This document shows positions 11,621 through 25,692 of a stretch of DNA of 54,277 bases, piece after piece. The translations under genes were made by a program, and so were the position numbers. Below the pieces are notes generated by a model. The model worked only from the letters and a program-made list of their open reading frames with translations, made no database searches and was not told the DNA's origin. Every line of letters begins with the position of its first letter. Within the stretch, counting starts at the first letter, position 1. This DNA comes from Bacteroidetes bacterium GWF2_35_48 (GTDB taxonomy: Bacteria; Bacteroidota; Bacteroidia; Bacteroidales; GWF2-35-48), in contig MEOG01000119.1 of the NCBI GenBank assembly GCA_001769125.1, positions 1-54,277 on the forward strand, in the 5' to 3' direction.

Positions 11621-11629
11621 TTAATTTTT

Positions 11630-12218
11630 CAGTAGATATTCAATTGTGCGACAATAGATGTTCAGTAGTGCTACAATAGATGTTCAGTAGATGTACAGTT
11701 GTTAATTCGATAGTGCAACAATAGATGTTCGGTAGATGTGCAATAGATGTTCGATTGTTAATTCAATAGTGCAACAATTGTATCCCTATCGTATTCCTAC
11801 TGAATTCCAATTGTATTTCTATTGAATTCCTATCGTATTTCTATTGAATCCCTATCGTATTCCTACTGAATTCCAATTGTATTTCTATTGAATTCCTATC
11901 GTATTTCTATTGAATCCTTATCGTATTCCTACTGAATTTCAATTGTATTTCTATTGAATTCCTATCGTATTTCTATTGAATTCCTATCGTATTCCTATTG
12001 TATTTCTATCGTATTCCTATTGTATTCCTATCGTATTCCTATCGTATTTCTATCGTATTCCTATTGTATTCCTATCGTATTCCTATTGTATTTCTATCGT
12101 ATTCCTATTGTATTCCTATCGTATTTCTATCGTATTCCTATTGTATTCCTATCGTATTCCTATTGTATTTCTATCGTATTCCTACTGTATTCCAATTGTA
12201 TTCCTACTGAATTCCTAA
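11630..12218. repeat. 11-bp repeat tract, copy 2, with three 66-bp higher-order units
   Basis: Left part (about 11630-11780): degenerate units with core CRRTAG plus RTGTW or TGCAA. Right part (11782-12218): about 40 units of 11 bp, consensus ATTYCTAYYGW, that is the inverted core. A six-unit block of 66 bp is repeated three times (11782-11847, 11848-11913, 11914-11979), the first two identical and the third differing at two positions. Because 11 is not a multiple of 3, all three forward frames stay open and read as YRIPIVFLSYS-like peptides; these are not genes. The tract fills the gap between the convergent PFK-like and M23 genes and touches the M23 stop codon. Unit differences are mostly C/T. 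Confidence 0.9.
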
Positions 12219-12896
12219 TTATTTCAACTGCCCAATATAATCATACGGAATAAGGTTTTCTCCATCGGTTTTTAGAACAGTAAAATGTAAATGAGTAGGA
12301 GATCTTTTAGGAAAAGCATTTTTTCCGCTTCGTCCAAGAGTGGCAATGGCGGTTCCTTTTTTGCATAAGTCTCCGTTTTGAACCTTTATAGAATCAAGAT
12401 GTGCAAAGTAAAAGAACAATGCAGCTTTAGGGTTAAAAGCCCAGATATAATTTCCGCCACGAATATCAGAGCCTTCTTTCCATCCGAAATTATGAGATAA
12501 AATAATCAGGTCAACCGGAGCATAAATATTTACAGGCTTCTTTGTTTTATCGTGGAGGCAGTCTTGATTATTATCCCGAATAAAAATGTCGTAGGCTGCA
12601 TGACCTCTATGTTTGTTCCCATCATAGAAATTATATCCTTTTGGAAGAAAACCACCTTTCCCGACATCATTCATTGATGCGCCTTCAACAGGAAAAACCC
12701 AATTGTCGTTATTCAAAAAAGATTTAGTAGCGCAGAATTCAAGCAGCTCCTTGTATAATACTGAAAACTGTTTTTTTGCTTCCGTTTTATAAATTTTCAG
12801 ATCGCGTACGTTTTTTTCAAAAACATTCCACTTTTCAATAGAGTCTGATTTGATGAGGAAAAAAGCAAATGCAATGCTGATAATTTTTTCAATCAT
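12219..12896 (-). CDS. M23 family metallopeptidase
   Basis: This 225-residue exported protein has an N-terminal hydrophobic segment (about 1-17). Its LytM/M23 domain shows the zinc ligands HRGHAAYD and THLHF, plus the typical ANIYAP-like strand VNIYAPVD and the GKKGTAIATLG-like turn CKKGTAIATLG. Active members cut peptide bridges in peptidoglycan in the periplasm. The start overlaps the stop of the DUF4846 gene by 4 bp (ATGA), so the two are translationally coupled. The stop codon directly borders the 11-bp repeat tract. Confidence 0.87.
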   Translation of the reverse strand: MIEKIISIAFAFFLIKSDSIEKWNVFEKNVRDLKIYKTEAKKQFSVLYKELLEFCATKSFLNNDNWVFPVEGASMNDVGKGGFLPKGYNFYDGNKHRGHAAYDIFIRDNNQDCLHDKTKKPVNIYAPVDLIILSHNFGWKEGSDIRGGNYIWAFNPKAALFFYFAHLDSIKVQNGDLCKKGTAIATLGRSGKNAFPKRSPTHLHFTVLKTDGENLIPYDYIGQLK

Positions 12897-13702: not shown

Positions 13703-13754
13703 TTTATATTTGGCGGAATGTAGTAAATTTTATATAGATTCCGCCAAATATAAA
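13703..13754. repeat. Palindrome at the 3' end of the AAA ATPase gene
   Basis: Perfect 17-bp arms, TTTATATTTGGCGGAAT (13703-13719) and its reverse complement (13738-13754), are separated by 18 bp. The last base lies one base from the stop codon of the ATPase gene (13756-13758). The element is a direct repeat of the palindrome at 15213-15262; the right arms and flank are identical over 25 bp. Confidence 0.9.
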
Positions 13755-13755
13755 A

Positions 13756-15201
13756 TTAGTATTCCCCTTCTTCGAACAGAACTTCTATGGTCAAATCATT
13801 CTCTACAATGCTTGTTTTGTGCATATTATTTTTTACTCCAAAGGTACTTATAAATGTAAGCATCATACTCTTTTTTGTTTTAGATTTCAACTGAAAATTG
13901 TTTATTTTTCTTCTTAGAATATTTGCATAAGCCTTATCAATAGTAAATTCTCCGGAATGGAATTTGATTTCGCAAATGTTTATAACATCATCGCTGCGAT
14001 CTATTAAAAGGTCAATCTGAAAGCCATTTTCATATTCATTACCTTTATAGATGTAACTGGATTCTTCGGTATATACGCCGCTTATCCCTAAAGCCTTTTT
14101 AATGTTTTCTGTATGTTTCATGCAGATGTTTTCAAATGCAAAGCCGCTCCAGCTTTTCCATTGTTGAGATTGGATTAATTTTGGCCATATATTCATTCCC
14201 GGTTTTGCTTGTTTTTCTATAAAATGAATATAGAAAAGAGAGTATTCATCGGTAAGTCTGTACAGGGTTTCTTTTTTCTTTTTATCAAAAGGAAAGTAGG
14301 ATGAAACAAAACCCGATGATATTAATTCCGATAGAATACGCGTTAAGCTTCCACCGTCTTTAATCTTGCTTTTAGTAATTATTTCAGTTCTTGTTAAGCC
14401 TTTCCATTTCGAAGCGAGTGCCCTTATAATATTTATATGTTTCTCTGCTTTTTCAAATAAAGCCGGATATAATTTATCAAATTCATCACGTAACAAACCA
14501 TTTTTCCTGAAGCAAATTGTATCAATATTTTGTGCAGCGCTTAATCCGGGTTTTATTTCTTTGAGGTAATGTGGAACTCCTCCCATAGCCATGTACAACT
14601 GGATTGTTTGATAGTGATCCATTTTTATGTTTCTGCTTTTCAAATATTTTTTTGTTTCGGCAAGAGTAAATGGTGCAAGATTAATAAGCTTTGTTATTCT
14701 GTTGTGCAAGCCACCTTTATTATGCACTACTTTGTTTATCATCCATGATGCCGAGGATCCGCATATAACAACAATAATATTTTGTTTGCTTGCCCACGAA
14801 TTCCAGAAATGACCAAGAGCTGTTAAGAATCCCGATTTTCGCGATGCAAGCCAGGGGAGCTCATCAAAAAATAATACTTTTTTTTTCTTTGTTTTTATCT
14901 TTTCGAGCGCAGTTGATAGTTGAAAAAAAGCTTCAAGCCATGATTCAGGAATGCTTGTTGTTTTTTTATTACCGGATATTTTATTCAGTTGTGTTGCGAA
15001 ATATTCTAATTGTTGCTTTGCGCTTGCCTGTTGAATTCCTGTTATCTCAAAATTAATATAATCCCTATAAACATTTCGTACAAGATAGGTTTTTCCAACT
15101 CTTCTTCTTCCTATTACCGCAAGCATTTCAGGGTGTTTGTTAAATAACAAATCTGTCATCATGCTTATCTCTTCAGTGCGTCCGATGATGTTTTTATTCA
15201 T
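13756..15201 (-). CDS. Solo AAA+ ATPase with C-terminal PD-(D/E)XK (DUF234-type) domain
   Basis: This 481-residue protein has an AAA+/STAND-like ATPase core: Walker A GRRRVGKT (31-38), Walker B VLFFDE (109-114) and a sensor-like VVICGSSASWM. A winged helix follows (about 265-320). The C-terminal domain has a nuclease-like core, D397 in QIDLLID and E411-I-K413 in CEIKFH. This matches the ATPase_2/DUF234 family common in archaea and Bacteroidota, whose role is not established. Both gene ends are bracketed by copies of a long palindrome (13703-13754 and 15213-15262). No partner gene is co-transcribed. I see no frameshift or missing motif, so it looks intact. Confidence 0.88.
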   Translation of the reverse strand: MNKNIIGRTEEISMMTDLLFNKHPEMLAVIGRRRVGKTYLVRNVYRDYINFEITGIQQASAKQQLEYFATQLNKISGNKKTTSIPESWLEAFFQLSTALEKIKTKKKKVLFFDELPWLASRKSGFLTALGHFWNSWASKQNIIVVICGSSASWMINKVVHNKGGLHNRITKLINLAPFTLAETKKYLKSRNIKMDHYQTIQLYMAMGGVPHYLKEIKPGLSAAQNIDTICFRKNGLLRDEFDKLYPALFEKAEKHINIIRALASKWKGLTRTEIITKSKIKDGGSLTRILSELISSGFVSSYFPFDKKKKETLYRLTDEYSLFYIHFIEKQAKPGMNIWPKLIQSQQWKSWSGFAFENICMKHTENIKKALGISGVYTEESSYIYKGNEYENGFQIDLLIDRSDDVINICEIKFHSGEFTIDKAYANILRRKINNFQLKSKTKKSMMLTFISTFGVKNNMHKTSIVENDLTIEVLFEEGEY

Positions 15202-15212
15202 ATTAAAAAATA

Positions 15213-15262
15213 TTATATTTGGCGGAATCTATGCAAATTTATATAGATTCCGCCAAATATAA
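15213..15262. repeat. Palindrome at the 5' end of the AAA ATPase gene
   Basis: Perfect 20-bp arms (15213-15232 and 15243-15262; the left arm is TTATATTTGGCGGAATCTAT) surround a 10-bp spacer. It ends 11 bp before the ATPase start codon. On the minus strand it contains the possible -7 box TAAATTTG in its centre, so it could be an operator over the gene's own promoter. It repeats, in direct orientation, the palindrome at the other end of the gene. Confidence 0.9.
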
Positions 15263-24402: not shown

Positions 24403-25692
24403 CTGTTTTATAGCGATTTGGTGAAATGGATGAAGTCTCCAAGGAGAAAGCCATTGCTTGTTCGCGGAGCAAGGCAGGTCGGTAAAACATATCTTATTAA
24501 AGAATTTGGTTCCAGAGAATTTAAAAATATTGTATTTATAGATTTTGAAAGGAGTCCTGAATTAAAAAAGATATTTATAGATAAACGTGATCCGGTTGAA
24601 ATAGTAAGGGAAATAGAGCTGGTAAAGAATGTCCGCATTGTAGCAGGAGAAACTTTATTGTTTCTGGATGAATTGCAGGAGTGTCCGGATGCAATAATAA
24701 GCATGCGCTATTTTTATGAAGAAATGCCTAAATTGCATGTAATAGGAGCAGGTTCGCTTCTTGAATTTGCTTTTTCTTCTATTTCTGTGCCTGTCGGAAG
24801 AATTCAAACCCTGCAAATGTATCCATTAACTTTTCACGAATTTCTTCTGGCAACAGGTAATACACGTTTGGCTGCTTTGTTAAATGAAGGATCAAAGGCG
24901 GTTTCTGATACAGTACACGAAAAATTTTTGCAATTATTACGGACTTATTTTATTGTTGGCGGAATGCCTGAAAGCGTGAAGGTTTTTGCAGAAACATCAT
25001 CACTGAAAGAAGCAACAGATGTGCTTTCAGATCTTGTTAATACCTACAGACTTGATTTTTCTAAGTACACGCCATCGGTTGACAAAACCTGTCTTGATCA
25101 TGTTTTTTCATCTTGTGCAGCAAAAGTAGGTGCGCAAACAAAATATGCAAGTTTAACCGATAATTTTTCAAACCCTACAATAAAAAAAGCTTATCATTCA
25201 TTAACATTGTCAAAAGTTATTGCGCAGGTAAAATCTGTGAACCCGCCTGTAATTCCTTTCGATGCATCTGCTTCCGATAAAATTTTCAAAACGATTTTAC
25301 TTGATGTTGGGATTATGAATTTTTTATCGGGTATGCCGGTAATGCGGGAATATTTAAAGGAAGATGTTTCTTCATTTTACAGGGGAGCTATTGCAGAGCA
25401 ATTTGTGGGTCAAGAATTGATGGCTTCCATGGGACATGTGTATTATTGGTCAAGAAATGAAAAAAGCAGTACAGCAGAGGTGGATTATTTAATTCAGAAC
25501 GATGGGAAAATATTTCCGGTTGAGGTGAAGAGTTCTGATACCGGTAGATTTGTAAGCTTGAAAATGTTTTTAGATATGTTCAAATCAGAAGAAGGCTATG
25601 TATTATCAGCAAGAAAATATTCGGTTTCTTCGCAAGGAAAAATAAAGTTTATTCCCTTATATTTTGCAGGTCATTTAATTTCCAAAAAATGA
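24394..25692 (+). CDS. Solo AAA+ ATPase with DUF4143 (PD-(D/E)XK-like) domain
   Basis: This 432-residue protein has an N-terminal AAA_14 ATPase: Walker A GARQVGKT (25-32), Walker B LLFLDE (88-93) and [12 protein letters not shown] as sensor. The C-terminal DUF4143 domain has a nuclease-like core, E362-V-D364 and E377-V-K379 (VEVKSS). Such genes are abundant, patchily distributed and of unknown function. Here it sits between thiE and thiG with no role in thiamine synthesis that I know of. Its stop overlaps the thiG start by 4 bp (ATGA), so thiG translation may now be coupled to it. It brings its own promoter and three 33-bp repeats. It looks intact. Confidence 0.88.

Follow-up and report, generated by a model that had tools for sequence, protein, structure and literature searches.

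A PDC-S27-family ATPase-nuclease gene bracketed by palindromes that its own winged helix very probably recognizes

REP palindromes and RAYT provide a known case of one gene flanked by palindromes that are read by its product. ATPases of the ORC and STAND types act as switches, and Orc1 is a reader of origin sites. The gene described here belongs to PDC-S27, a phage-defence candidate in PADLOC in which a single gene encodes an ATPase domain fused to a PD-(D/E)XK domain (PMC12988326). In the accessible text of that source PDC-S27 is a candidate by embedding only, experimental validation is pending for most such candidates, and 3503 instances were counted in Archaea and 4562 in Bacteria (PMC12988326); further counts are given in PMC13356809. 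No report of palindromes beside PDC-S27 genes was found in the accessible parts of the literature, including PMC12988326, PMC5760070 and PMC13356809.

The window (the whole stretch of DNA analysed, 54,277 nt) contains a 481-aa gene bracketed by two 44 bp palindromes. The features of the locus are listed below, the limits of the palindromes being the canonical half-site limits.

13756-15201, minus strand: AAA+ ATPase/winged-helix/PD-(D/E)XK protein of the PDC-S27 family, 481 aa; start codon 15199-15201, stop codon 13756-13758
15216-15259, no strand: upstream palindrome with a 12 bp gap, formed by TATTTGGCGGAATCTA and its reverse complement as half-sites (15216-15231 and 15244-15259)
13707-13750, no strand: downstream palindrome with the upstream core and a 12 bp gap (half-sites at 13707-13722 and 13735-13750)
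15234-15241, minus strand: TAAATTTG in the upstream spacer, matching TAnnTTTG (window sequence)

The motif TAnnTTTG is the Bacteroidota -7 promoter box. In the orientation of the gene, the upstream palindrome has perfect 20 bp arms and ends 11 bp ahead of the start codon; the downstream palindrome starts 1 bp past the stop codon and has 17 perfect arm bases followed by a mismatch. These arm lengths and distances had been given in the original prediction and were confirmed by reading and by a repeat search. The two palindromes are direct repeats of each other, as also predicted, with 88% identity over 57 nt (repeat search and direct reading) and with 25 identical bases common to both copies within the palindrome. 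The pattern ATTTGGCGGAAT-N10..25-ATTCCGCCAAAT gave two matches in the window and none in 100 shuffled windows. Its exact matches in the 5.98 Mb genome of the organism were the same two places in the window only (diverged copies would escape this search), and among 40 genes of the window, including the ATPase gene, the canonical hits were the two bracketing palindromes only. Elsewhere in the window, copies of 11628-12225 occur in diverged form on numerous contigs of this genome, and its frame reads as a repeated peptide; 25054-25536 encodes a DUF4143 ATPase domain, one of 21 matches in the genome, without a canonical palindrome nearby.

The window protein matched the PADLOC PDC-S27 profile over its full length (E = 1.1e-200; residues 2-476 on profile positions 2-473 of 474). 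In Pfam it matched ATPase_2 (PF01637) at 66.9 bits (curated cut-off 33.2), and at E <= 0.001 only AAA families were returned, with no DUF234 (PF03008), Y1 transposase or repeat sensor domain; the assignment to the DUF234 class in the original prediction is corrected accordingly. A distant relative in the same genome (L005) matches DUF234, and the paralogue L004 does so only at E = 0.004. None of the NCBIfam profiles scored above its cut-off for the window protein, and a sequence search of solved structures gave no match at E <= 1. The nuclease-like domain that had been proposed is borne out by a PD-(D/E)XK motif visible in the alignment. Apart from T38, each of the ATPase and nuclease residues is kept in at least 169 of the 171 proteins aligned.

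15088-15111, minus strand: Walker A motif GRRRVGKT, residues 31-38 (alignment; G31, G36 and K37 in 171/171, T38 in 168/171)
14860-14871, minus strand: Walker B motif FFDE, residues 111-114 (alignment; D113 and E114 in 171/171)
14254-14448, minus strand: winged-helix domain, residues 252-316 (AF2 model)
14317-14358, minus strand: residue 282 plus recognition helix 283-295 (covariation of 282 with half-site position 8 and of 285 with position 5)
14272-14274, minus strand: wing residue K310 (covariation with half-site position 10)
13963-14019, minus strand: PD-(D/E)XK motif QID...E-x-K, residues 395-413 (D397 in 169/171, E411 in 170/171, K413 in 170/171)

An AF2 model of the window protein was obtained from seven sequences (mean pLDDT 82.6). 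In the model residue 282 directly precedes the recognition helix (283-295), and the wing, flanked by strands 299-302 and 313-316, contains residue 310. Fold comparison with VIA-align, the rows of which cover mainly residues 1-345 (the AAA+/winged-helix part, not the nuclease domain), gave SSO1545/PABY2304 (Z = 18.7 and 18.9, rmsd 4.2, about 300 residues aligned) and CED-4 and plant RPP1 (Z = 17.0 and 16.4, rmsd 4.4-4.5); Orc1 on origin DNA (2qby) was matched with Z = 12.8, rmsd 6.7 and 295 residues aligned. The modelled fold is thus closest to SSO1545/PABY2304, the STAND ATPases and Orc1/Cdc6.

Relatives were drawn from 60, 395 and 393 genomes, in partly overlapping sets, and from genome stretches. 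Among the matches listed, a relative was present in 11 (1e-50), 21 (1e-60) and 64 (1e-80) genomes; in the 395- and 393-genome searches at most four candidates were scored per genome among the matches listed. The set numbered 158 full-length proteins before and 143 after removal of truncated and identical proteins, and at most six of the 143 were found through the palindrome itself (L013, L014, L017, L023, L024 and L026). Two of the 36 rows of an early comparison (L030 and L045) were truncated-gene artefacts.

An inverted repeat with a score of at least 14 was present upstream in 92 of 141 relatives versus 1 of 423 shuffles. Compared with window control genes, such plain inverted repeats were found upstream in 41/57 relatives versus 2/39 controls; downstream the figures were 13/52 and 6/39, with no clear enrichment. 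Alignment of the arms gave a 16 bp half-site, approximately TATTTnGCnAAAwCTA, with a variable core. When all gaps from -4 to 24 were scored equally, a well matching half-site pair was found in 113 of 141 upstream regions, and the gap was 11 or 12 in 96 of these 113. The canonical palindrome was defined as two 16 bp half-sites with a gap of 11-12 bp. A downstream copy is present in 40 of the 143 relatives and absent from 103, and 34 have copies on both sides; dinucleotide shuffles gave 0/710 for each side. In genes with both, the downstream core equalled the gene's own upstream core in 31 of 34 cases, versus 173/3774 in comparisons with the cores of other genes. The bracketing at both ends that had been noted for the window gene holds there and is no rule for the family, because the downstream copy is the exception. 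Relatives without any flanking palindrome, which had been named as evidence against the proposal, are not the pattern within the subfamily, where 112 of 143 have an upstream copy and 31 lack a canonical one. The same palindromes were also considered as a rule for the DUF4143 and PF09820 ATPases and rejected (upstream 3/24 and 1/24, downstream 1/24 and 0/23; 60 loci taken, 12 without a usable ORF dropped).

Several of these features are those of a plain autoregulator, in which the palindromes would be operators of an ordinary chromosomal gene, with no mobile unit, and the downstream copies would be side effects of a duplication or of tandem operators recombining. Upstream copies outnumber downstream ones by far (112 versus 40 of 143), and tandem upstream copies are frequent (two in 40 genes, three in five). 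The motif TAnnTTTG occurs in the start-proximal upstream spacer in gene orientation in 43/112 cases versus 8 reversed; the downstream spacers contain it in 9/40 and 3/40 cases, respectively. We regard this explanation as a serious possibility, somewhat doubtful as a full account; points against it arise from the edges of the unit, which are described below.

Covariation was calculated for 86 proteins with less than 75% mutual identity, taken from 101 with a canonical upstream site, skipping positions at which the two half-sites of a gene differ. With two near-invariant columns set aside, the mutual information peaked at residue 282 with half-site position 8 (Z = 24.6) and at residue 285 with position 5 (Z = 13.2); residue 310 gave peaks at positions 10 (Z = 12.8) and 12 (Z = 12.6). 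Ser, Asp and Asn at residue 282 accompany C (29/29), G (18/20) and T (14/19) at base 8; Thr and Ser at residue 285 accompany A (18/21) and G (12/12) at base 5; Lys and Arg at residue 310 accompany A (40/41) and T (16/19) at base 10. Each of these three covariations was reached by 0 of 5000 shuffles. A contact of Asp or Asn with C or A on the opposite strand would be a usual one. G164 and W133 also seemed to co-vary with DNA position 7, which was discarded as an artefact of near-invariant columns. In a nearest-neighbour control, with pairs picked on the remainder of the protein, the same residue 282 went with the same base 8 in 48/51 pairs and a different residue with a different base in 23/34; for the control residue 300 the base differed in 19/61 same-residue pairs.

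The rules were then applied to 70 held-out proteins (seven plasmid relatives plus 63 loci drawn anew from the class, not thinned among themselves), eight of which have 70-90% identity to a training protein and none higher. A canonical palindrome was present upstream in 52 of the 70, downstream in 15 and on both sides in 13, with matching cores in 12 of these 13. Leaving out residues unseen in training (2, 1 and 1), base 8 was predicted correctly from residue 282 in 46/50 cases, compared with 27/50 using the commonest training base; the corresponding figures were 31/48 and 12/48 for base 5 from residue 285 and 45/46 and 42/46 for base 10 from residue 310. Where even the closest training protein was less than 65% identical, 40/44, 27/41 and 38/39 predictions were correct for bases 8, 5 and 10, versus 21, 12 and 35 by the commonest base. 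In the held-out set the predictive power of residue 285 is moderate, and residue 310 adds little beyond the majority rule. Five of the seven plasmid-borne relatives, all with about 39% identity or less, lack a canonical site, so the palindrome-reading model covers a subfamily and not all of PDC-S27. The relative in Emticicia oligotrophica DSM 17448 (WP_015026319.1) carries upstream a palindrome with the core of the window gene and agrees with the window protein in the three residues (D, S and K). Given the covariation of the core with residues of its own winged helix, the ATPase very probably binds the palindromes that bracket it, and the original prediction of a target or operator of the ATPase gains support from this covariation. 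The upstream palindromes probably serve autoregulation.

When genome contigs were scanned with TTTGGCGGAAT-N6..30-ATTCCGCCAAA, the result was 21 stretches with the exact core of the window palindromes. Six adjoin an ATPase relative (40-48% identical; Verrucomicrobia, Fibrobacter, Bacteroidota and Clostridia), and on a Tannerella contig (L024) the palindrome is present on both sides of the relative. Twelve of the 21 have the 39-40 bp length of the family. Two of these adjoin another ATPase-nuclease family, with the palindrome upstream of an AAA_14/DUF4143 gene in L011 and downstream of a partial PF09820/PDDEXK_9 gene in L025, and in five (L007, L010, L016, L019 and L020) no relative was found by tblastn at E = 1e-3 within the stretch searched. 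The occurrence of the palindrome mostly away from such genes had been named as a further objection; on this point the outcome is mixed, with 6 of 21 stretches adjoining a relative in the scan as a whole and 5 of 12 at the family length, where the two just mentioned lie beside the other family. In a Muribaculaceae contig (L020 4680-4776) two canonical palindromes lie side by side, with no ATPase relative in the 8 kb covered. Four stretches of viral contigs match a palindrome pattern, and none of them encodes a relative.

Some stretches of the scan with other spacings directly follow dnaK (L009) and secA (L012), the names being read by eye, as terminators would. This fits an account in which the palindromes have nothing to do with the protein and are terminators, REP-like repeats or hairpins arising by chance. 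The rigid gap of 11-12 bp, the position upstream of start codons, the residue-to-base covariation that predicts held-out genes and the presence of only two exact copies in the organism's own genome all speak against such an origin, which we consider extremely improbable.

Cores were compared within and between genomes for 81 members from 28 genomes (sampled paralogues only; identical proteins had been removed earlier from the training set). None of 124 within-genome pairs was alike at eight or more of the nine core positions, versus 137/3116 between-genome pairs, a result equalled by 9 of 2000 label shuffles. The mean core identity was little lower within genomes (4.76/9) than between them (5.02/9; 87 of 2000 shuffles as low).

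In genus g251, the pairs L247/L250 and L243/L250 share the gene together with a double-palindrome array on each side, and the similarity ends at the outer edges of the arrays; five other genomes match the g251 unit from query position 493/496 to 2145/2150. At the same site the gene is missing from genome G729, where a single array is present. The upstream flank and array of G729 match the filled genome G576 (85% over 560 bp), and its array and downstream flank match the filled genome G788 (95% over 1650 bp). The far downstream flank of G576 also matches G729 (214 bp at 89%), with different DNA between, and the upstream flank of G788 differs from that of G729; a direct match to the empty genome is thus limited to a single side in each filled genome. 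The last half-site of the orphan array in G729 looks decayed by eye, from which we infer that gene loss is favoured over a pre-insertion state. A dispersed repeat of about 66-160 bp (L250 273-425) occurs in dozens of places in g251 genomes.

Proteins L037 and L222 are 97% identical and come from hosts of two different families with different flanks; the loci share 172 bp upstream, a few dozen bases downstream and a displaced 98 bp downstream match. A 20 bp direct repeat with one mismatch surrounds L222. These proteins, together with the shared DNA that ends at the outer palindrome edges in both g251 pairs, the same edges in five other genomes and the single array at a gene-free site, argue against the plain autoregulator.

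In genus g118 related copies lie in different contexts. Empty counterparts exist for an insertion beside asd (gene read by eye), and 14-30 bp are present twice at the filled site. The g118 insert does not begin and end at palindromes, contrary to what a simple terminal-repeat model would require, and the L060 copy is without a canonical downstream palindrome. The 3' end of asd looks like an insertion hotspot, the gene end being repeated beyond the insert (L060 1417-1446 and 3145-3174; L082 2980-3051). L129 (1426-1792; G244) contains pieces of what looks like a degraded ATPase unit. Genome G001, from the genus of the window's organism, has no ATPase relative at E = 1e-50.

For the insertion in the window itself no empty site was found, the flanks matching only in separate pieces in 20 relatives. 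The suggestion that the palindromes are the boundary of a mobile unit gains support from the g251 edges, which fall at palindromes, and none from those of g118; a single leftover palindrome array, the sign proposed for a site without the gene, was found in G729 and not for the window's own site. Overall, these sequence comparisons suggest that the gene can be gained and lost as a unit delimited by its brackets.

Sharp edges, related copies at different sites and the single leftover array are also what an autonomous transposon would leave, with the palindromes as element ends and the ATPase-nuclease cutting and pasting its own unit. In Tn7 the PD-(D/E)XK part is TnsA and the AAA+ part is TnsC, and a transposon of this kind would distantly resemble both fused in one protein. 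The 14-30 bp duplicated at the filled g118 site and the direct repeat around L222 fit such an element. Against it stand the 103 of 143 members without a downstream palindrome, the Pfam matches to AAA families only, duplications that vary in length and lie away from the palindromes, and the two exact palindromes in the genome of origin. We consider it unlikely.

The reading that we favour, and judge to be probable, is that of a single-protein, self-recognizing ATPase-nuclease that reads its own palindromes, is autoregulated, forms a unit marked by its brackets and uses private codes. In a first step, which the sequences support well, its own winged helix would read the palindrome, two subunits occupying one half-site each; the bases would be chosen by residues 282 and 285, where the recognition helix begins, and by residue 310 of the wing. 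Secondly, the upstream copies, which would overlap the promoter, may allow the protein to control its own level, and the nuclease may be restrained by ATP-driven assembly on the palindrome. The plain autoregulator shares these two steps, so that the probabilities of the two explanations overlap. Thirdly, as seen at one site and suggested at others, two-sided palindromes could delimit what is gained or lost as a unit, with a copy staying behind where the gene is absent. Finally, private palindromes may prevent cross-action between sister copies of the same genome; private cores would be expected of an autoregulated, possibly selfish or defensive, nuclease. Dimeric docking, autoregulation, restraint of the nuclease by docking, and defence or selfishness are what we infer here from the pattern of sites and residues. 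As a tentative and rather unlikely generalization, the large class of solo ATPase-nucleases may consist of selfish or defensive single-gene cassettes in which docking on their own palindromes restrains the nuclease and marks the unit for gain and loss, the codes diverging within a genome to avoid cross-reaction.

The window protein has in common with PDC-S27 a full-length profile match and the ATPase and PD-(D/E)XK active-site residues; the accessible description of PDC-S27 makes no mention of palindromes, a binding code or unit edges (PMC12988326). For this subfamily the predicted cognate DNA site and the three-residue code make direct bench assays possible. With the archaeal ATPases SSO1545/PABY2304 and the Orc1/Cdc6 initiators it shares, by fold comparison, the AAA+ and winged-helix fold, to which it adds a PD-(D/E)XK domain. 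The AAA+ winged-helix core is likewise common to the STAND/NLR ATPases (CED-4 and the plant resistosomes), whereas the winged helix of the window protein appears to read DNA and no Pfam repeat sensor domain was matched. With the subfamily an ORC/STAND-like ATPase would be added in which the winged helix has apparently acquired many specificities, the geometry of the site remaining fixed. In contrast to REP/RAYT, the window protein matches AAA-type families only and no Y1 (HUH) transposase, and in place of many dispersed palindromes there are two exact copies in 5.98 Mb, a count that diverged copies would escape. Of the features of insertion sequences and transposons, related ends on both sides occur in part of the family (palindromes on both sides in 34 of 143 relatives, cores alike in 31 of the 34), and a duplication of variable length (14-30 bp) was seen at one g118 site. 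If these genes are indeed selfish or defensive cassettes with a private code, they would represent a new kind of system that is neither restriction-modification, toxin-antitoxin nor transposon.
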